Of a DNA stretch of 64,000 nt, positions 22,234 to 50,740 are shown piece after piece. Source of the stretch: Anaerosomatales bacterium. GTDB taxonomy: Bacteria; Actinomycetota; Coriobacteriia; Anaerosomatales; SLCP01. The stretch's first letter is position 1. Every line of letters starts with the position of its first letter. The notes below the pieces were generated by a model. The model worked only from the letters and a program-made list of their open reading frames with translations, made no database searches and was not told the origin of the DNA. The translations under genes and the position numbers were made by a program. The stretch lies in contig JARGFT010000002.1 in NCBI GenBank assembly GCA_029210645.1, positions 104,016 to 168,015 on the forward strand, given 5' to 3'.

Positions 22234-22866
22234 CTACGCGCCCCTGACGTGCGCCCGCCTCACGAGCGCGACCGCCGTGTCAGCGAGCAGGTTCGGCCAG
22301 AGGTGGACTCGCCGGATCTGGCCGGCCCACTCCCGGGTGACGAGCGAGACCTCGCGCTCGATCGCGCCGCCGTTGGTCGCCACGAAGTCCCTGAAGTCCG
22401 TGACGGTCGTGTGGTGGATGTTGGGCGTGTCGTACCAGCTGAACGGGATGGAACGCGATACGGGCATCCGACCGCGGAGAGCGAGATAGCCGCGCACCCG
22501 CCAGTGGCCGAAGTTCGGGAAGGTCACCACGCCGCGCTGCCCCACCCGCAGCATCTCGCCGAGGACGAACGCCGGGCGCCGCACGACCTGCAGGGTCTGT
22601 GAGAGCACCACGTAGTCGAAGGAACCGTCGGCGTAGCCGGTGAGGCCCGCGTCGAGGTCGGCCTGCACCACGGACAGGCCACGGCCCAGCGCGCTGGCGA
22701 TATCCTCCGGACTCAGGTCGATCCCGCGGACGGTGCACCCCTTCTCATCACGCAGGTGCGCCATGAGCGACCCGTCGCCGCAGCCCAGGTCGAGTACCCG
22801 GCTCCCCGCCGGGACCAACTCCGTGACGAGCCTCAGGTCCGCGCGCAGCAGGTCCGCCATAGTCAT
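22234..22866 (-). CDS. metW: MetW methyltransferase-like partner of homoserine acetyltransferase
   Basis: 210 residues, class I methyltransferase fold. The SAM-binding motif is VLDLGCGDGSL near residue 24, followed by VRGIDLS. The later PNFGHWRVRGYLALRGRMP and WYDTPNIHHTT are strong MetW signatures. MetW forms a complex with MetX in many bacteria and supports methionine synthesis. Its start overlaps the metX stop (ATGA), the usual coupling for this pair. Confidence 0.93.
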   Translation of the reverse strand: MTMADLLRADLRLVTELVPAGSRVLDLGCGDGSLMAHLRDEKGCTVRGIDLSPEDIASALGRGLSVVQADLDAGLTGYADGSFDYVVLSQTLQVVRRPAFVLGEMLRVGQRGVVTFPNFGHWRVRGYLALRGRMPVSRSIPFSWYDTPNIHHTTVTDFRDFVATNGGAIEREVSLVTREWAGQIRRVHLWPNLLADTAVALVRRAHVRGA

Positions 22867-24035
22867 CGGAGTTCACCTCCCACCGGTGCGACGTCTTGCC
22901 CGGCACGCTCCCGCTCCTCGCTCACGATACGCGCGAGGAACGGCTCGAGATACTGCCGCTGCTGCTCGGCCTCGAGCAGGAAAGCATCGTGGCCGTACGG
23001 GCTTGGGACCTCGGCGAACGACACCTCGGCGTCTGCAGCCTTAAGCGCATCGACGAGTTCGCGCGCCTGGTAGGTCGGGAAGAGCCAGTCACTCGAGAAC
23101 GAGAGCACCAGGAAACGGGAGCGTAAGCCGGCCAGCGCCTCGGCCAGCGTGGCGTGGCCGGAGGAGAGATCGAAGTAGTCCATCGCCTTGGTCATGTAGA
23201 GGTAGGTGTTCGCATCGAAGCGCTCGACGAACTTTCGCCCCTGGTACGCGAGGTAGCTCTCCACCTCGAACTCGGTCACGAACTCGAAGGCGTGCTCGGC
23301 CCGCTCGCGCAGCCGCCGGCCGAACTTCTCGCGCATCGAGTCGTCGGACAGGTACGTGATGTGCCCGATCATCCGTGCGACCGCCAGCCCGTGGCGGGGC
23401 TGTCCCTGCTCGTAGTAGTCGCCCTCCATGAACGCCGAATCGCCGAGGATCGCCGTGCGGCCGACCTCGTTGAACGCGATGGACTGCGCCGCCAGGCGCC
23501 AGGTGGTCGCGATGGCCGCCACCGAGGCGACCCGGTCGGGATACCGCCGGGCCCACGCCAGTGCCTGCATGCCACCCATCGAACCGCCGGCCACGCACCC
23601 AAGCCGCCCGATGCCGAGGTGGTCGAGGAGCGCGGCCTGCGCATCCACCATGTCCTCGACAGTCACGAGCGGGAAGCGCAGGCCGTAGGGCGCGTTGGTC
23701 CCCGGATCGGCAGAGCCCGGGCCGGTGGTACCCGAACAGCCGCCGAGCACGTTGCTGCAGATGACGAAGTACTTCTCGGTGTCGATCGCCTTGCCCGGCC
23801 CGACCACCGGGTCCCACCACCCGGGACGCTCCTCGCCGAATCGGTCGGGCCCCGCCGCGACGTGCGCGTCACCCGAGAGCGCATGGCACACGAGGATCGC
23901 GTTAGCGCGCTCCGCATCGAGCTCGCCGAACGTCTCGTAGGCGATCTGGACGTGCTCGAGCCGGCGGCTCGACACAAGGTCGAGACCGCCGGCCAGTTCG
24001 AACACGTGCGGACCGGGGGCCGTCACCGGGCTCAC
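22863..24035 (-). CDS. metX: Homoserine O-acetyltransferase
   Basis: 390 residues, GTG start overlapping the metY stop. An alpha/beta hydrolase with nucleophile elbow GGSMGGMQALAWARRYPD, an early VCHALSGDAHV oxyanion segment, and late LVLSFSSDWLFP (Asp) and SPYGHDAFLLE (His) completing the triad. It transfers acetyl from acetyl-CoA to homoserine for direct sulfhydrylation. Some family members use succinyl-CoA; the specificity was not tested here. Middle gene of a metY-metX-metW operon. Confidence 0.94.
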   Translation of the reverse strand: MSPVTAPGPHVFELAGGLDLVSSRRLEHVQIAYETFGELDAERANAILVCHALSGDAHVAAGPDRFGEERPGWWDPVVGPGKAIDTEKYFVICSNVLGGCSGTTGPGSADPGTNAPYGLRFPLVTVEDMVDAQAALLDHLGIGRLGCVAGGSMGGMQALAWARRYPDRVASVAAIATTWRLAAQSIAFNEVGRTAILGDSAFMEGDYYEQGQPRHGLAVARMIGHITYLSDDSMREKFGRRLRERAEHAFEFVTEFEVESYLAYQGRKFVERFDANTYLYMTKAMDYFDLSSGHATLAEALAGLRSRFLVLSFSSDWLFPTYQARELVDALKAADAEVSFAEVPSPYGHDAFLLEAEQQRQYLEPFLARIVSEERERAGQDVAPVGGELR

Positions 24036-25333
24036 ACCAGCCCCAGCGCCTGGTCGAGATCGGCGATGATGTCGTCGATGTCCTCGACCCCCACGGAGAC
24101 CCGCACGAACTCCTCGGAGATGCCGGCACGCTTCAGCTCCTCGGCGCTGAGCTGGCTGTGCGTGGTCGACGCCGGGTGGATGATGAGCGACTTTGCGTCC
24201 CCGACGTTGGCGACGTGGCTGAGCAGCTTAACGCTGTCGATCAGCGTGCGGCCGGCCTGCTTGCCGCCCTTTACGCCGAAGACCACCACGCCGCCATAGC
24301 CGTTGGCCAGGTAGCGGTCCGCGTTGGCCTTCGTGGGGTGATCGTCCAGTCCCGGATAGGTCACCCACTCGACCTTGGGGTGCTCGGCGAGGTGGCGCGC
24401 GACCGCAAGGGCGTTGTCGGAGTGGCGCTGCACCCGCAGCGAGAGCGTCTCGACGCCGAGCAGGAACTGCTGCGCGTTGAAGGGCGAGAGCGACGTGCCG
24501 AGGTCGCGCAGGAGGTTGACGCGCGCCCGGATGGCGAAGGCTACGTTGCCAAGCCCGGGGAAGTCGCCGAACACGTCCCAGAACTTCAGGCCGTGGTAGC
24601 TCTCGTCCGGCTCGGTGTAGTACGGATGGCGTCCCCCGCCCCAGTCAAAGGTGCCGGCGTCCACCAGCACGCCGCCGATGCTGGTGCCGTGTCCGCCGAG
24701 CCACTTGGTGAGCGACTCCACCACGACAGCGGCACCGTGCTCGACGGGCCGGCAGAGATACGGAGTCGCAAACGTGTTGTCGACGAACAGCGGGATGTTG
24801 AGAGAGCGGCCTGCCTCGGCAAGTCCGGCAAGGTCCGGCACGTCGAGCCGCGGATTGCCGATGGTCTCGACGAACCACGCCTTGGTGGTGCTATCCGAGG
24901 CCGCGGCGAAGCCCTCGGTATCGGTGGTCTCCACGAAGCGCACCTCGATCCCGAGGCGCCTGAACGTGTGCAGGAAGATGTTCCAGGTGCCGCCGTAGAG
25001 AGACGTCGACGAAACGATCGAGTCGCCCGAGCCGGCTACGTTGAGCAGGCCGAGGACCTCTGCTGCGTGTCCGGACGACACTGCGAGCGCCGCGCTGCCA
25101 CCGTGCAGGCCGGCGATGCGCTGCTCGAGCACGTCGTTGGTGGGGTTCATGATGCGGGAGTAGATGTTGCCGAACTCGCGCAGGCCGAAGAGGTCGGCGG
25201 CGTGGTCGGTGTCGCGGAAATTGTACGCGACGGTCTGATAGATCGGCACTGCGCGGGAGCCGGTGGTGGGGTCGGGCTTGGCGCCGCCGTGAATGGCGAC
25301 GGTGTCGAATCGGGGTGCGACATGCTCGCTCAT
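24032..25333 (-). CDS. metY: O-acetylhomoserine sulfhydrylase
   Basis: 433 residues, Cys/Met metabolism PLP fold. The Schiff-base lysine is in VESLTKWLGGHGTS, preceded by LFVDNTFATPYLC. The N-terminal GFDT-type start is here FDTVAIHGGAKPDP with AVPIYQTVAYNF. MetY makes homocysteine directly from O-acetylhomoserine and sulfide, which suits a sulfidic anaerobe. First enzyme gene of the operon. It lies 49 bases downstream of a short ORF packed with Met codons, which is the likely attenuation leader. Confidence 0.95.
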   Translation of the reverse strand: MSEHVAPRFDTVAIHGGAKPDPTTGSRAVPIYQTVAYNFRDTDHAADLFGLREFGNIYSRIMNPTNDVLEQRIAGLHGGSAALAVSSGHAAEVLGLLNVAGSGDSIVSSTSLYGGTWNIFLHTFRRLGIEVRFVETTDTEGFAAASDSTTKAWFVETIGNPRLDVPDLAGLAEAGRSLNIPLFVDNTFATPYLCRPVEHGAAVVVESLTKWLGGHGTSIGGVLVDAGTFDWGGGRHPYYTEPDESYHGLKFWDVFGDFPGLGNVAFAIRARVNLLRDLGTSLSPFNAQQFLLGVETLSLRVQRHSDNALAVARHLAEHPKVEWVTYPGLDDHPTKANADRYLANGYGGVVVFGVKGGKQAGRTLIDSVKLLSHVANVGDAKSLIIHPASTTHSQLSAEELKRAGISEEFVRVSVGVEDIDDIIADLDQALGLV

Positions 25334-25382
25334 GATTCTCTCGCTTTCCGTGTCGTGACACTTAAGGATAGATGTACCCGAC

Positions 25383-25493
25383 CTACGCGACGGCCGGGTG
25401 GCCGAGGCGCCCGGAACCCTCGCATGCGCGAGAAGACCCGGGCTGGGTCATCATCATGTCCATCATCATCACGAACGCGGTAAAGCGGACCAT
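25383..25493 (-). CDS. Methionine-rich leader peptide of the metYXW operon
   Basis: 36 codons beginning MVRFTAFVMMMDMMMTQPG, so six of seven consecutive codons (9-15) are ATG. The stop is at 25385-25383, 49 bases before metY. AGGAGG lies about 16 bases before the ATG, a long spacing. Such a run of codons for the pathway's own product is the hallmark of ribosome-mediated attenuation (as in trp, his and leu leaders). Stalling at the Met run when charged Met-tRNA is scarce would change folding downstream. I see no SAM riboswitch in this leader. The length and sequence make chance unlikely. Confidence 0.75.
   Translation of the reverse strand: MVRFTAFVMMMDMMMTQPGSSRACEGSGRLGHPAVA
25391..25442 (-). 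promoter_or_regulatory. Hairpins of the metYXW attenuation region
   Basis: Two hairpins follow the Met run on the minus strand. One has outer arms CCCGG/CCGGG and inner CTCGC-GCAT-GCGAG (25442-25410). The second is CGGCC-ACCC-GGCCG (25404-25391), overlapping the end of the leader ORF. A ribosome stalled at codons 9-15 would sit directly before the first. There is no U-tract, so control may act on metY translation or through Rho rather than an intrinsic terminator. Confidence 0.45.
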
Positions 25494-25705
25494 GGTAGCT
25501 GCTGTCGCACCTCCTCTCGCTGAACCGGGGCGGCCCCCGCCGAGTCTCTCAGCGCTGCCGCCTGCCAGGTAGTGCCGACCATAGTGGACTGCGTCGCCCG
25601 CGCCCGTCAAGCCCGGTACCCGCACCGAAACGGTGCGCTTCCTGCGCGCCTCGGCGCTGCTATACACTCTGCAGGTACCACCGAGCCACTCGAAGGGAGC
25701 GTCAC

Positions 25706-26290
25706 GTGAAGAAGCGCCTCGGTCCGTCGGACCGGCTCTATCCAATGCCCTGCCCCCTCGTGGTCGGCGGCACGGCCGGAGAGAGCGACCTGCTCGCGGT
25801 GGCGTGGATCGGCATCGCAGCCGGCACGCCGCCGAGCGTGTCGATGGCGCTTCGCGATTCCCGTCGCACCCTCGAGCTAATACGCGAGTCCGGGGAGTTC
25901 ACCGTGAACATCCCGCCGGTGAGCATGGCGCCCGAGGTCGACTACTGCGGCATCACCAGCGGTCGGACCACGGACAAGTGGGCAGCCACCGGACTGACCC
26001 CGGAGCCGGGTGCGGTAGTCGCGACCCCGATCGTCGCCGAGTGCCCGTACAACATGGAGTGCCGCGTCACCGCGATGCACGACATCGGTCACTACACGCT
26101 CGTGGTCGGCGAGGTCGTCGAGACGCACGCCGACGAGCATGTGCTCGACGAGAGCGGCGAGAAGGTGGACGTCGGCCTCCTCGATCCGCTCGTCTACATC
26201 GCCGGTTCGCGTGAGTACCGCGGCCTGGGTCCGGTGGTGGCCCAGGCGTTCTCGGTCGGCCGGACGGTCGGGCCGGAGGTTGCCGAGTGA
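25706..26290 (+). CDS. Flavin reductase-like FMN-binding protein (flavoredoxin family)
   Basis: 194 residues, GTG start with AAGGGAG upstream. The split-barrel FMN fold is indicated by the N-terminal YPMPCPLVVGGT, the VAWIGIAAGTPPSVSMALRDSR strand-turn that binds the phosphate, and FTVNIPPVSMAPEVDYCG. Family members reduce flavins or act as electron carriers in anaerobes. It overlaps the GNAT gene by GTGA. Divergent from the met operon, sharing its 370-base upstream region. Confidence 0.82.
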   Translation: MKKRLGPSDRLYPMPCPLVVGGTAGESDLLAVAWIGIAAGTPPSVSMALRDSRRTLELIRESGEFTVNIPPVSMAPEVDYCGITSGRTTDKWAATGLTPEPGAVVATPIVAECPYNMECRVTAMHDIGHYTLVVGEVVETHADEHVLDESGEKVDVGLLDPLVYIAGSREYRGLGPVVAQAFSVGRTVGPEVAE

Positions 26291-45560: not shown

Positions 45561-45587
45561 TGAAAGCCGCACATCTCCGCAGACTCC

Positions 45588-45690
45588 CCGCTCAAGGCAC
45601 AGCACGCCGAAAGACGTGCTTCGCAAAGTCACGGGTCTACCGGAGGGCACGCTCGCCCTCCCACGACAGCCGGACCGCCGGGTACGAGAT
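45588..45690 (+). promoter_or_regulatory. Cyclic di-GMP-I riboswitch (GEMM RNA)
   Basis: The conserved core is unmistakable: CGCAAAGTCACGGGTCTA at 45622-45639 against the GEMM consensus CGCAAAGCCACGGGYCU. It is preceded by AAGGCA and a stem GCACG/CGUGC capped by a C-GAAA-G tetraloop. It is followed by a second stem GGAGGGC/GCCCUCC (45642-45661) and the receptor-side ACGACAGCCGG (45664 on). All are in the correct order and spacing for the two-helix fold with a tetraloop/receptor contact. The ligand is c-di-GMP, or c-AMP-GMP in variant forms. It precedes the metallopeptidase gene. Confidence 0.8.
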
Positions 45691-45749: not shown

Positions 45750-45782
45750 GTGCGCACCAGGCTCGCAAGGGGTGTCCGGCAC

Positions 45783-46472
45783 ATGAACGCACGGATCAAG
45801 AGGACCACCAGCGCGATGCGGTTCGCCGCGTTGCTGCTCACCGTAGCTCTTCTTGTGGGAGCTGCTCCCGCAACGGCCTCGACCACCGAGATACGCTCGC
45901 TCGAGGTCAGTGCCAGGTTCGCATCGTCGCTCGAACCGGATGCCACACCCGTTACCCCAGCACAGAAGACCGGCGCCGACGTTGCCGTGTCCGAGTCCCG
46001 CGCCGGGTATACCACGCCGCTCGCAAAGGCCAAGGCACCGCTGCCCAAGCCGGTCGCAAAGCCGGCACCGGCACCCGCGCGCAGGTCTGCGGGCAGCAGC
46101 ACCGCAAAGACCAGCAGCACCCCCGCGAGCTCGAGCGCCCCCAAACCTGCTTCGAACGCCTCCGCACCCGCTCCCAAACCGGCTGCGTCAAGCGGGAACA
46201 CGCTCTCTCAGGCGCGCAGCATTCTCGCGTCGCGGATCGCGACCTACCCGATCCTCCGCGGTGCGACGGTGGAGGTCGGCGACACCAAGGGCAACCCCCA
46301 GGCCATCTGCTACTACAAGTCGGGGCGCATCATCATCAACCCGAACCACACCGTCAGTGTCGAGCGGATCATCAACCACGAGATCTGGCACATCATCGAC
46401 TGGCGCGACAACGGCCAGATCAACTGGGGCGAGAGCGTGCCCCCGAGCAACGCCGCGGACTTCCGCGGGTAA
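45783..46472 (+). CDS. Secreted putative zinc metallopeptidase (HExxH) under c-di-GMP control
   Basis: 229 residues from the ATG at 45783. Signal peptide (FAALLLTVALLVGAAPATA), a low-complexity Pro/Ala/Ser/Lys linker near 75-140, and a C-terminal domain with INPNHTVSVERIINHEIWH: HEIWH is an HExxH zinc site, followed by IIDWRDNGQINWGE, which could give the third ligand. The protein ends soon after (SNAADFRG), so the catalytic domain is compact, about 85 residues. The riboswitch upstream makes it c-di-GMP-responsive. By analogy with C. difficile PPEP-1 it may release the neighbouring LPFTG protein; that target is inference. Confidence 0.75.
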   Translation: MNARIKRTTSAMRFAALLLTVALLVGAAPATASTTEIRSLEVSARFASSLEPDATPVTPAQKTGADVAVSESRAGYTTPLAKAKAPLPKPVAKPAPAPARRSAGSSTAKTSSTPASSSAPKPASNASAPAPKPAASSGNTLSQARSILASRIATYPILRGATVEVGDTKGNPQAICYYKSGRIIINPNHTVSVERIINHEIWHIIDWRDNGQINWGESVPPSNAADFRG

Positions 46473-46560: not shown

Positions 46561-46589
46561 ACCCGTACGGCGGTAGCCGGAGTACGGGT
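46561..46589 (-). repeat. 3' hairpin element of the LPFTG gene, copy A
   Basis: Arms ACCCGTAC/GTACGGGT enclose the loop GGCGGTAGCCGGA, directly behind the LPFTG stop codon. Copy B at 50294-50324 has different arms (AGTCCGCA/TGCGGACT) but nearly the same loop: compensatory change with a conserved loop, which indicates selection on RNA structure. Confidence 0.6.
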
Positions 46590-49500
46590 TAGGCGGCTTT
46601 GCGAGAGCGCCGCCGCAGAGTCAGGCCAGCAGCAGCTGCAGCGCCGGCGAGAGCAAGCAGGCCGAGAATGTCTGCACCCGTGAAGGGCAGGAACGGCTCC
46701 TCCTCGACTTCCACTCTCCACGTGCTTCGATCGTTATCGGGATTGTCGTCGTCGGGATGGGTCACCACGACGACGTTGTCGAGGTAGGTGGTCCCATCAG
46801 GCATGTTCTCAGAAACGAGCATCTTGTAGGTGATGGTCCGGGAGGCGCCAGCGGCAAGCGGCTCGGCGAAGGTCCAGGTGATCTGACCGTTGGAGACCAC
46901 ACCGCCGGCAGCATCGACCACGGCAAGGTAGCGCTGATCGAACGTGTCCTCGACCACGTAGTCGGAGGCCGCGGCGCTACCGTAGTTGGTGATGACGATC
47001 GTGTAGGTGATGGTATCTCCTGGGTCGGCCTTCGTGCGGTCTGCCGACTTCTTCACCCCGAGATCCGGGAAGCCCAGGAACTCGTCGATGTCCACGAACG
47101 CCTCGTCCGTATCGGACACGGGCTCGCCGACCGGCGGAGTGCCGGTCGCGACCACGACGTTGGCGATCGGCATGTTGATGACTGCCGTTCTCGTGAATGT
47201 CTGGGACTCGCCAGGAGCAAGCTCATCAATCGTGGCTATGATACCGAGGTGGTCATCGTCGATAAGGACTGAGGTCAGGGGCACGTTGCCGGTGTTCGTG
47301 ACGACGAAGGTGTAGGTCACTTCGTCACCTGCGAGCACGAGCGAGGAGCTCACTGACTTCTCGATGTCGATGCCAGGTGCCGAGCCGAAGTAGCTCGAGT
47401 CGTCGGAGTCCTCGACGACGTCATCACCCGTCGGCGGGTTGCCGACCGCAGTGCCGACGTTCTCGTACTCGCCCTCCACAGCGATTCCCTCGTGCTCGAG
47501 CGTGTCGCTCTCGCCCGACGCCAGGACGTCGATGGTGCCGATCGGGCCTTCGATGTCGTCGGTGACAACGATGTCGGTGATCGTAACGTTGCCGGTATTG
47601 GTCACCTGATAGCTCCAGGTGATCGGTGCGCCGACAGGGATGTACTCACCGTCGGCTCCGTTCGTGAGCTTGACGATGTCGATGACCGGGTTTTGCGGCA
47701 GGTAGACCGTCTCGTCGTCCTCATCGGTCACCGGTGCTTCGCCAGGGCCGTAGCCGGTGACGAGCGCCTCGTTGTAGAACTCCCCGGCGTCGATGTCTGC
47801 CTGGGTGAGGTAGTACACGCCGGTAAAGGTCGTGGCGTCGGTGCCTCCGACGGCCAGCATCAGCAGCGGGCCACCCGAGACGATGACATCGCCGACCAGG
47901 TCGGTGACGTCGACGTTGTAAAGGGTCACGTTGCCGGTGTTGGCCACGGTGAACGTGTAGTTGACCGGCTCGCCCACATCGGCGAACCCGTCAGCGTCGC
48001 TGTCGACCCACGTGCCGGACTTGGTCAGCTCGATAGCGGCCGACTGGCCGAGCAGGACCGTCTCGTCGTCGGTGTCAGAGACCGGCTCGCCTGCCGGGTC
48101 CTGCGCGTCGACGGTGGCCAGGTTGTAGACCTCGCCGGCGTCGATGTCGTCTTGGGTCAGGACGTAGGTCGCGGTGAACGTCATGTCGTCATAGGCGCCG
48201 ACCGCAAGGGATGCGAGCGGGCCGCCGGCAACGGTCACGAGCGGGTCTGAGACCATCACGTCATAAAGCGTGACGTTGCCGGTGTTTTCCACCTTGAAGG
48301 TGTAGCTGATCGTCTCGCCGACCTGCGCGATGCCGTCAGCGTTCTCGTCTTCAAAGATGCCCGACTTCGTGAGCTCGATGACCGGGTTTTGGACCGCGGT
48401 AACGGTCTGGTCGTCTTCGTTGGACGCGACCTGCTCGCCATCGAAGTAGCCGAAGCCCTGTGCGGTGTTGGTGACGCTGCCGGCGTCGAGGTCTTGCTGC
48501 GTGATGGTGTAGGTGGCGGTGAAGGTCGTGAACTCGCCGGGCGCCAGGGAGGCCGCGTTGGGCATGTCCTCGCTCACCGTGGCCTTGTCGTCGGTCACCG
48601 TGAACGGGCCGGTAAGCGTCACGTTGCCGGTGTTGGTCAGCGTGTAGGTGTAGGTGATCTCGTCGCCGACCGTGTCGTAGGTCGCAGGGCTGGCCTGCTT
48701 GACGAGGGTGAGCTCGGGCATGGCCTGGAAGTTGCCGACCTCAACTGAGGTCGTGCCTCCCGCGGTAACGATCACCTGCATCGGCAGGTCGGTTGTGTTC
48801 GTCCAACCGTCCTTCAGCGTCTCGTTGAGCTGATAGGTTGCGTCCGGAAGCGGACCGAACATAAATGACCCATCTGCAGCCGACGTAGCTGTGAGATGAA
48901 GCGGGAAGCCGCTCGGACCGTTCGTGAGCGTGAACTCCCAGCCCATGAGCCCCGGCTCGCCGAGATCCCGTTCGCTGTTGCCGTTCAAGTCGTTGTACTT
49001 GATGCCAGCGATGTAGCCTGAAGGCTTGGGCGGAATCGGGATCGGAACCGTCTGGGCGCCCGTCGGTGCCTCGATGCGCATCGAGGCGCTCGAGCCCGGG
49101 TAGGAGCCAGCACCGTCACGGGCGGGCATCTGCTGGTTCCACCAGGCCGTGTACGCCAGATGTGCCTGGTAGTAGACGATCGCGTGGTATCCCGGAGGTA
49201 CGATGACCGCACCGGCCGGGAACTCGCTCATCAAGAACGAGGCGGAGCCGTAATCGCCCGGGGGCACCGGCGCGTCCTGAAGGCTCGGTGTGACCGGAGA
49301 GCCTACGGGATCGGGACCGTCGCCCTTGACCGGTGCAGCAGTCTGATACTGCACGCGCCACTCGCGGGTCATATCGACAGCGATCGCATTCTTATTGCTG
49401 TCGTAGTGGTCGTACTTGAGCGAGAAGGCACCGAACACGTACGGCTCGGTCCCCGTGCTGTTGTCGATAGTGAACCGGTACGGGACCCAGTCGCCCTCGG

Positions 49501-49942
49501 CATAGTCCTTACCGATGTTGCCGTTCGACCAACCGAGCTGGTTGGAGCTGGCATTGTAGCCCTCGAGGTTCACCTTGATATTGTCCGTGGAAGGTACGAC
49601 CTCTTCGCCCGAAACCGCAGCTGGCGCCATCATCGGCGCGCTTGCCCCGGGGGCTTCGATCTCCTCAACGGGCGCAGCCTCTTCCTCCTCAGCTGCAACC
49701 GGCACTACTTCTTCGGGGGCAGCATCACCCTCTAGAGGCTCATCAGCCGGAGCAACAGCCCCCGACGATTCCTCGCTCTCCTCCGGCACCATCACACTCG
49801 CGATGGCTTCCGGATTACCCTCCTCGGCAAATGACGCGGGTACCGCACCTGCGATACCCGTGAACATCACGACGACAACCAGCGTGAGGTACGTCGTGAA
49901 AAGCCGGGAGAGCAGTGGCCTACGCCGTAGCGTTCGTGCCAT
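46589..49942 (-). CDS. Large LPFTG-anchored surface protein with DUF11-type repeats (adhesin-like)
   Basis: 1117 residues from the ATG at 49942 (AGGGG nine bases upstream; an in-frame ATG at 49951 is too close). Signal peptide, a Glu/Ala/Pro-rich spacer, an N-terminal ligand-like domain near 120-310, an SdrD-type B domain (GIKYNDLNGNSERDLGEPGL), then six repeats built on VTYTFVVTNTGNV (DUF11/DUF7507). The wall-sorting signal is LPFTG, a helix (DILGLLALAGAAAAAGLTL) and RRRSRK. Repeats contain acidic Ca-binding-like loops (SDTDDET). A stalk-type adhesin or pilin-like protein for the adjacent sortase. Its leader carries a c-di-GMP-II-like aptamer. PP-containing sites (GNPPTG, GTPPVG) lie between repeats. 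Confidence 0.88.
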   Translation of the reverse strand: MARTLRRRPLLSRLFTTYLTLVVVVMFTGIAGAVPASFAEEGNPEAIASVMVPEESEESSGAVAPADEPLEGDAAPEEVVPVAAEEEEAAPVEEIEAPGASAPMMAPAAVSGEEVVPSTDNIKVNLEGYNASSNQLGWSNGNIGKDYAEGDWVPYRFTIDNSTGTEPYVFGAFSLKYDHYDSNKNAIAVDMTREWRVQYQTAAPVKGDGPDPVGSPVTPSLQDAPVPPGDYGSASFLMSEFPAGAVIVPPGYHAIVYYQAHLAYTAWWNQQMPARDGAGSYPGSSASMRIEAPTGAQTVPIPIPPKPSGYIAGIKYNDLNGNSERDLGEPGLMGWEFTLTNGPSGFPLHLTATSAADGSFMFGPLPDATYQLNETLKDGWTNTTDLPMQVIVTAGGTTSVEVGNFQAMPELTLVKQASPATYDTVGDEITYTYTLTNTGNVTLTGPFTVTDDKATVSEDMPNAASLAPGEFTTFTATYTITQQDLDAGSVTNTAQGFGYFDGEQVASNEDDQTVTAVQNPVIELTKSGIFEDENADGIAQVGETISYTFKVENTGNVTLYDVMVSDPLVTVAGGPLASLAVGAYDDMTFTATYVLTQDDIDAGEVYNLATVDAQDPAGEPVSDTDDETVLLGQSAAIELTKSGTWVDSDADGFADVGEPVNYTFTVANTGNVTLYNVDVTDLVGDVIVSGGPLLMLAVGGTDATTFTGVYYLTQADIDAGEFYNEALVTGYGPGEAPVTDEDDETVYLPQNPVIDIVKLTNGADGEYIPVGAPITWSYQVTNTGNVTITDIVVTDDIEGPIGTIDVLASGESDTLEHEGIAVEGEYENVGTAVGNPPTGDDVVEDSDDSSYFGSAPGIDIEKSVSSSLVLAGDEVTYTFVVTNTGNVPLTSVLIDDDHLGIIATIDELAPGESQTFTRTAVINMPIANVVVATGTPPVGEPVSDTDEAFVDIDEFLGFPDLGVKKSADRTKADPGDTITYTIVITNYGSAAASDYVVEDTFDQRYLAVVDAAGGVVSNGQITWTFAEPLAAGASRTITYKMLVSENMPDGTTYLDNVVVVTHPDDDNPDNDRSTWRVEVEEEPFLPFTGADILGLLALAGAAAAAGLTLRRRSRKAA

Positions 49943-50000
49943 GTCGCTCATCCCCTCATCTTCCGGACGCCCAAACCCTCGTGGGACCGGTCGATGAGAG

Positions 50001-50035
50001 AAAACAAAGACCGGCTCGTCTGTGACGGGCCGGTC
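50001..50035 (-). terminator. Intrinsic terminator overlapping the c-di-GMP-II-like aptamer
   Basis: On the minus strand GACCGGC-C-CGTC, ACAG loop region, ACG-A-GCCGGTC, then TTTGTTTT: a good stem with a U-tract, 59 bases before the LPFTG start. Its 5' arm (GACCGGCC) is also the 3' strand of the aptamer core, so aptamer folding and terminator folding exclude each other. Confidence 0.75.
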
Positions 50036-50112
50036 TCACCACTGGCTCCCCGTCGACGTATCGGTGACCGAACGCGTGTCGACGGATCTATACCTCCCGA
50101 AAGGCGCCCGAC
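50028..50112 (-). promoter_or_regulatory. c-di-GMP-II-like riboswitch upstream of the LPFTG gene (copy A)
   Basis: The 3' core on the minus strand is GAGCCAGTGGTGAGACCGGC, compared with the c-di-GMP-II signature GAGUUAGURGUGCAACCGRC. P2 is CCGTCGAC/GTCGACGG (50085-50078 with 50057-50050). The enclosed loop carries GGTCACC, whose TCACC can pair with GGTGA of the core (50067-50063 with 50040-50036), giving the pseudoknot. The upstream strand GGGAGGTATAGAT can pair with GGCCC to close P1. The terminator at 50001-50035 uses the same 3' strand, so ligand binding should permit transcription (ON switch). The class was assigned by eye. Confidence 0.65.
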
Positions 50113-50324: not shown

Positions 50325-50644
50325 GGGCGATCCTGTTGGCCGGCCGGATGGCCTGATGAGAGCCGCCGGGTCCGGCATCGGCCGTAGCGACATGACACCA
50401 CTCGCACGTCGCGACCGCAATACTGCATGTGGGCTCACGCGGACCTCAGCGCCACGTTCCCGCCCGCATCGACCAAACTGCCCGTGTGAATGGAGCGTGG
50501 TTCTGCGAACGATGCGGCCGGAAGAAAGGCCAGTTCAGCAAGCATGCCGAAACGCAGAGTACTTTGGTCAGCCCCCCTACCGCACACCGAGTCAGGCAAG
50601 CCGGCGTCGAATCGGCCTTTTACCGCAACAGCCGGCTTGTCCCC
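50325..50644. other. Apparent remnant of a second adhesin-type unit, no supported gene
   Basis: Between aptamer copy B and 3' element copy B there are about 320 bases with no ORF that has a ribosome-binding site and plausible composition. A nine-base inverted repeat CAAGCCGGC/GCCGGCTTG lies at about 50596-50640. The LPFTG coding sequence is not recognisable here. Either the gene was deleted or the unit makes a short RNA. Confidence 0.45.
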
Positions 50645-50645
50645 C

Positions 50646-50740
50646 GAGGGCCGGTCTCACCATTGGCTCCCCGCCGGTGTCCCGGTGACCGACACAATCC
50701 GGCGGATCGATGCCTCCCCTAAGCAACCGCATAGCCGCGG
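50646..50740 (-). promoter_or_regulatory. c-di-GMP-II-like riboswitch, copy B
   Basis: Same motif order as copy A: GGGAGGCATCGATCCG, P2 CCGCCGG/CCGGCGG by a different sequence (50705-50699 with 50677-50671), loop CGGTCACCG, and 3' core GAGCCAATGGTGAGACCGGC. P2 in A and B differs at several positions yet pairs fully in both, which supports the structure. No clear terminator with a U-tract follows this copy. Confidence 0.6.

Follow-up and report, generated by a model that had tools for sequence, protein, structure and literature searches.

A candidate methionine-sensing leader peptide and ribosome-mediated attenuator upstream of metYXW in Anaerosomatales

The question raised by this locus is whether a short open reading frame rich in methionine codons, lying directly upstream of metYXW, controls these genes by leader-peptide attenuation. 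The control of methionine genes is usually attributed to SAM riboswitches, T-boxes or MetJ, which leaves methionine as a gap among the amino acids sensed by leader peptides. The locus lies in a stretch of 64,000 nt from an Anaerosomatales bacterium, referred to here as the window, and its features are collected in Table 1. Based on comparative sequence analysis, we put at roughly 0.8 the probability that the ORF encodes a methionine-sensing leader peptide and that the leader is a ribosome-mediated attenuator of metYXW.

Table 1. Features of the metYXW locus and other predicted regulatory elements in the window
Feature	Position	Strand	Basis
Palindrome CGCACCGtttCGGTGCG, candidate operator just upstream of the -35 box	25621..25637	minus	perfect palindrome
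Candidate promoter: TTGACG (25610-25605), 18 nt, CACTAT (25586-25581)	25581..25610	minus	by eye, spacing in relatives
GGAGG Shine-Dalgarno sequence of the leader ORF	25510..25514	minus	16 nt from the leader ATG
Leader ORF, 36 codons, MVRFTAFVMMMDMMMTQPGSSRACEGSGRLGHPAVA*	25383..25493	minus	frame open in 36/36 leaders
Met run MMMDMMM, putative control codons	25449..25469	minus	uniqueness scans and column conservation
Hairpin H1, 5' arm GCCCGGGTC	25409..25443	minus	fold z-scores, alignment pairs, frozen synonymous sites
Hairpin H2, enclosing the stop codon of the leader	25376..25399	minus	local fold
GGGTACATCTATCC, possible pairing partner of GATGATGACCC at the end of the Met run	25366..25379	minus	suggestive
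metY, O-acetylhomoserine sulfhydrylase	24032..25333	minus	NCBIfam TIGR01326 over cut-off
metX, homoserine O-acetyltransferase	22863..24035	minus	NCBIfam NF001209 over cut-off
metW	22234..22866	minus	TIGR02081 and PF07021 over cut-offs
c-di-GMP riboswitch, class I	45586-45682	plus	over Rfam cut-off
c-di-GMP riboswitch, class II-GAG	50019-50106	minus	over Rfam cut-off
c-di-GMP riboswitch, class II-GAG	50640-50726	minus	over Rfam cut-off

A preliminary description had reported a 36-codon ORF with MMMDMMM shortly before metYXW, and its coordinates, minus strand and length are all correct. The ORF begins with an ATG at 25493 and ends with a TAG at 25385-25383, which leaves 49 nt between the stop and the metY ATG (25333). 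The run itself reads ATG ATG ATG GAC ATG ATG ATG (25469-25449). When up to one mismatch is allowed, ATGATGATGNNNATGATGATG matches at a single place in the window, and 100 dinucleotide shuffles contain no match. In the whole genome (1.98 Mb) it has a single exact match, and every other match carries two mismatches. The start codon had also been described as lying far from its Shine-Dalgarno sequence. This is indeed the case, and the long spacing, 14-17 nt, is shared by all 36 leaders compared below (in L006 it was read by eye, the script having picked a later purine stretch there).

The leader is conserved throughout the order. The pattern ATGATGACCNNGCCCGGGTC, with up to two mismatches, was run on 69 Anaerosomatales genomes and the matches were compared by eye with the places of metY. 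A leader lies directly upstream of the gene in all 34 genomes that have the metY 5' end. These are 33 with full-length metY and one (G037) in which metY is cut by the contig end; G105, G135 and G147, with partial or distant metY matches only, were left out. In two of the 34 genomes metY is present twice and both copies are preceded by a leader, so that the alignment consists of 36 leaders, which come from related genomes and are not independent sequences. Exact matches of the pattern adjoin metY in 28 of 28 cases by the same comparison, and near matches with one mismatch each occur away from metY in L143 (G019) and L153 (G047). The frame is open across the 36 leaders, and changes in length come in threes. 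Met is present at run codons 3 and 6 in 36/36 leaders, at codon 4 in 34/35, at codon 5 in 32/36, at codon 1 in 31/35 and at codon 2 in 26/36, in agreement with the conservation of the Met run upstream of metY that the preliminary description had called for. Within the order, constraint on the codons of the run is inseparable from constraint on the RNA, because ATG has no synonym. Beyond the run the synonymous sites are frozen (ACC 35/35, CCC 35/36, GGG 35/36, and a later GGG 34/34), since these codons build the 5' arm of hairpin H1.

The same comparison bears on the idea that the 36-aa peptide functions as a microprotein in its own right, perhaps one that binds metal or sits in the membrane, and lies before metY by chance. 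Its Met-rich stretch and a Cys conserved in 28/35 leaders are compatible with such a role. However, the C-terminal part is variable, and L020 and L021 lack it. The frozen silent sites and the restriction of exact pattern matches to positions beside metY also speak against a microprotein, and no NCBIfam or Pfam model matches the peptide. We consider this explanation very improbable.

Hairpins had been reported after the run and overlapping the end of the ORF, and both parts of this description are borne out, with one hairpin (H1) located 3' of the run and another (H2) around the stop codon. H1 has the form GCCCGGGTC...GAYYCGGGC and a mean z of -4.5 against dinucleotide shuffles over the 36 leaders. 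It comprises 14 pairs, and 86.1% of the alignment cells for these pairs can form them, compared to 20-53.5% for slid versions. Four pairs have changed on both sides, almost all of them in the inner helix. In every one of the 36 aligned leaders, H1 opens with a base pair 8 nt downstream of the A of the final Met codon. H2 is less well defined: a fold with at least four pairs encloses the stop in 30/36 leaders, with a mean z of -1.5, slightly above shuffle stability. RNAalifold, applied to 32/36 leaders with the four that have atypical stop positions left out, returned six pairs of H1 only and none of H2, owing to poor alignment around the stop. The conserved ORF, its Met codons, the hairpin and their geometry are direct observations.

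Other pairings were also considered. The end of the Met run can pair with GGGNATC behind H2 with a mean z of -2.4, or -1.0 when the GGG is held fixed (35/36 leaders), and pairing of the Met run with the whole spacer gives a z of -0.7 against dinucleotide shuffles (32 leaders). These values give a hint of pairing between the end of the run and GGGNATC after H2, or the whole spacer. A trp-type alternative hairpin, formed by arm 2 and the next segment, was rejected, its mean z of 0.06 over 36 leaders being no better than chance.

Translation of the leader, stalling and the direction of control are proposed as follows. Ribosomes translating the leader would reach the six Met codons and, if elongator Met-tRNA were in short supply, would wait there. 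Because H1 begins only after the 8-nt interval, it would stay paired just ahead of a ribosome held at any of these codons, and a ribosome passing the run would melt it. Intact H1 would then represent a 'starved, genes on' state, and melted H1, together with translation to the stop inside H2, an 'off' state. When the A site holds the final Met codon, H1 would begin at about +12, adjoining the helicase of the ribosome, which Takyar and colleagues reportedly placed at +11 in 2005.

Ribosomes could also be stalled by the peptide itself, as in the nascent-peptide arrest exemplified by CGS1 and TnaC. In that case MMMDMMMTxPGS in the exit tunnel would sense Met or SAM and stall the ribosome, and hunger for the codon would be unneeded. 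The residues T-x-P-G-S that follow the run are conserved in at least 32/36 leaders, except at the position between T and P, as might be expected of an arrest sequence. However, these positions are frozen at silent sites as well, which a peptide does not require, and the peptide of L021 ends at PGS. In addition, the peptides of other families described below differ, and only the place of the Met codon before the helix is kept. Nascent-peptide arrest seems unlikely on these grounds, and waiting at Met codons is the preferred reading.

The sensing could alternatively be carried out by a SAM riboswitch or a T-box, with the ORF as a by-product. Orthologues of metY elsewhere often have a SAM-I aptamer (RF00162) in the locus: it was found in 6/19 scanned metY loci outside the class, mostly more than 1 kb from metY, and in 6/20 scanned metY loci from other phyla. 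The preliminary description had named a SAM riboswitch in this leader as an observation that would speak against it, and no SAM riboswitch or T-box is matched by Rfam in the window leader. A search at E up to 10 returned only weak matches to unrelated families there. Rfam families were likewise absent from the related leaders in 20 loci scanned of 35, and at E up to 1 seven loci gave two chance matches, both unrelated. A SAM-I riboswitch also differs in kind from the window leader, since it senses SAM by an aptamer and independently of translation. This explanation is the least probable of those considered here, and the leader peptide remains the preferred sensor. The sole SAM-I-like aptamer of the organism's own genome (L001 1501-1633) scores 43.7 bits, just under the cut-off of 44.4; a hairpin and a T run separate it from a metK-like gene. 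U-tract terminators are therefore available to the organism, and metY is without one.

No intrinsic U-tract terminator was found in 25250-25720 by a consensus scan, and the sequence there contains no T run. It is the sequence that establishes this absence, as the scanner misses the interrupted stem of the terminator in L171, one of the loci of a second type described below. Scan negatives in L131 and L171 carry no weight, since in L131 the scanner probably runs the stem on into the T run and in L171 it meets the interruption. That no transcription terminator is visible in the window leader would suit translational attenuation, in which translation of the leader opens or closes the metY ribosome-binding site. 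Masking of the metY Shine-Dalgarno sequence was nevertheless rejected, because the computed accessibility of the start region is the same in all states (means of 0.50 stalled, 0.51 at the stop, 0.52 free and 0.51 with H1 melted, in the 32/36 leaders that remain when four with atypical stops are left out). Translational attenuation is accordingly rated as quite unlikely. Given the absence of a U-tract, premature termination in Anaerosomatales would have to be either Rho-dependent or hairpin-driven. Rho is encoded in the genome, and the spacer between the leader and metY is mildly C-rich (C 0.31 vs G 0.21), which makes a weak case for Rho. We give Rho-dependent termination as the outlet in this order slightly less than an even chance.

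What is found at the locus corresponds to leader-peptide attenuation in its main traits, namely a Met-rich ORF with a start signal, conserved codons and frame, and a helix directly after them. Like the trp, his, leu, ilv, thr and phe attenuators, it would comprise a translated short ORF ahead of a biosynthetic operon, in which repeated codons specify the amino acid that the operon makes and hairpins come immediately afterwards. It differs from these in that Met would be sensed and in that neither an alternative antiterminator (2:3) pairing nor a U-tract intrinsic terminator, both of them marks of the trp type, was found in the window leader or its order. The attenuation by methionine proposed in the preliminary description thus holds as a mode of sensing but not as a proven termination switch.

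In a survey of Actinobacteria, leader peptides are described for Trp, Leu/Ilv and Cys, and conserved RNA structures are reported to be absent upstream of methionine operons (Seliverstov et al. 2005, PMC1262725). The cys leaders of Mycobacterium, Propionibacterium and Bifidobacterium covered there resemble the window leader in having a run of control codons, a sulfur operon and no intrinsic terminator, and Rho was proposed for the actinobacterial cys operon leaders (PMC1262725). In contrast to the window leader, their Cys runs lie near the stop, and that survey gives them no conserved hairpins (PMC1262725).

The preliminary description had placed methionine genes mostly under other controls. 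A Met leader does have a precedent: one called metL has already been predicted before metNIQ in a reannotation of Streptomyces lividans (PMC8079986). It was the only published Met leader found in the open-licence literature, from which subscription journals are mostly missing. Like the window leader, metL is a predicted Met-containing leader of a methionine operon with no typical terminator; it differs from the window leader in being leaderless, in belonging to a transport operon, and in mixing Met and Cys (MCRRMCAF) with no long run (PMC8079986). The possibility that the window leader is a homologue of metL was rejected, as the operon is different, the window leader has a Shine-Dalgarno sequence and the sequences are unrelated by eye. 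A search of eight large actinobacterial genomes identified relatives of metL by sequence match in seven (L205-L211). In the relative from L210 one Met of the tail is replaced by Leu and the Cys codons remain. Judging from this example, Cys may be as important as Met in metL-type leaders. What appears to be new at metY is the application of a known sensing mode to methionine, with a fixed geometry and, within the order, no intrinsic terminator.

A Met codon shortly before a helix is also found in other families of Coriobacteriia. The sample consists of 40 metY loci from these families, taken as the best matches from outside Anaerosomatales for which upstream DNA is present. The leaders found there are of varied sequence, and by eye many of them start where the transcript appears to start (MKKKHVYNALICMGLFMRKPEVA*, MERTQTYQPIPGRQMP*, MARGFNTQMRCMMAGRMMCSRAF...); several short ones, such as GRQMP*, have a single internal Met codon. 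An ORF in which a helix of at least 7 bp follows a Met codon at a distance of 6-9 nt is present in 16/40 loci, compared to 0-4/40 in six shuffled sets; one of the 16, L117, is probably due to chance. Seven further loci (L095, L098, L104, L108, L109, L115 and L131) are similar by eye and fall below the helix threshold, and in the remaining 17/40 neither the scan nor inspection by eye revealed a leader of this kind. With the distance narrowed to 7-8 nt and the helix threshold unchanged, Met is found in 15/40 loci, against a mean of 0.83 and a maximum of 3 in 30 shuffled sets. When all amino acids are scanned in this way, Leu and Arg reach 7 each, both within the shuffled range, and Cys reaches 5 against 1.6. 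Met alone is far above the shuffled expectation, although the counts are overstated, as genomes within a family are not independent. As a separate observation, L022 and L050 share the stretch CCCGGGCGAATGCAG upstream of metY. The L022 copy comes after the hairpin of a YRMMMP* leader, ~350 nt before metY, and beyond it is a long structured stretch that ends in seven Ts.

A metY search of 246 genomes from the phylum provided 29 further upstream regions outside the class. Five of these (L167, L168, L171, L173 and L174, from three families) contain a different Met leader, of which VKIMCCMAMPPHLGAGG and VKIMCCMAMPPHLGAGGMLM* are examples, and the other 24 have no Met leader of this second type. The second-type leaders are unrelated to that of Anaerosomatales. 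In contrast to the window leader, these loci show the marks of the trp type. A hairpin and then a T run, with energies of -18.9 to -25.7, form a U-tract terminator in 5/5, and in 4/5 the codons after the run, CCACCTGG, are complementary to CCAGGTGG in the 5' part of the terminator; the leader RNA and the terminator therefore exclude each other. By eye, the distance from the last ATG to the start of the helix is 8 nt in L168, L171 and L173, and 9 nt in L174. The off-switch of these loci looks like an intrinsic terminator against which the leader codons are able to pair. In the L167 type, starvation would leave the leader arm within reach of the terminator, and plentiful Met would lead to its removal, a direction of response that would have the usual sign for a biosynthetic operon. 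The sensing half in the window's order would be the same.

These comparisons allow a broader proposal, which we advance tentatively and with the odds somewhat against it as a whole. Met leaders would be a standard control of metY in Coriobacteriia and would have had several origins within Actinomycetota. In each, 7-9 nt would separate the final Met codon from the helix that switches, and a ribosome starved of Met would thereby halt right at that helix. The outlet in Anaerosomatales would operate without an intrinsic terminator, by a three-way fold of the Met run, H1 and H2 acting on Rho or polymerase, and would be of a kind not described so far. A Met leader is fixed across the order, the same spacing recurs in the class and an unrelated form occurs elsewhere in the phylum, and the 8-nt rule offers a simple key with which to search for further leaders. 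Met starts every protein, and initiation also needs it. A Met sensor of this type must thus tell hunger in elongation from failing initiation, which poses a sharp and testable question.

The region upstream of the leader is a divergent promoter region, because the neighbouring flavin-reductase-like gene (PF01613) sits on the plus strand. A consensus promoter scan did not reach its threshold at the candidate promoter listed in Table 1, from which the leader RNA would start near 25574. The palindrome CGCACCGtttCGGTGCG, 10 nt before the TTGACG box, resembles an activator site, and by eye the arrangement of a GGTGCG half-site, N10 and then TTGACG/TGGACR keeps its spacing in many relatives. This is the sole exact copy of the palindrome in the genome, and therefore no regulon can be drawn from it. 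Taken together, the leader and the palindrome probably place the metYXW operon under two controls.

Elsewhere in the window, both class II-GAG c-di-GMP riboswitches are located upstream of, and on the same strand as, a gene for a repetitive surface-type protein of 1120 aa (46589-49951, minus strand). The class I c-di-GMP riboswitch precedes an ORF of 240 aa (45750-46472, plus strand).
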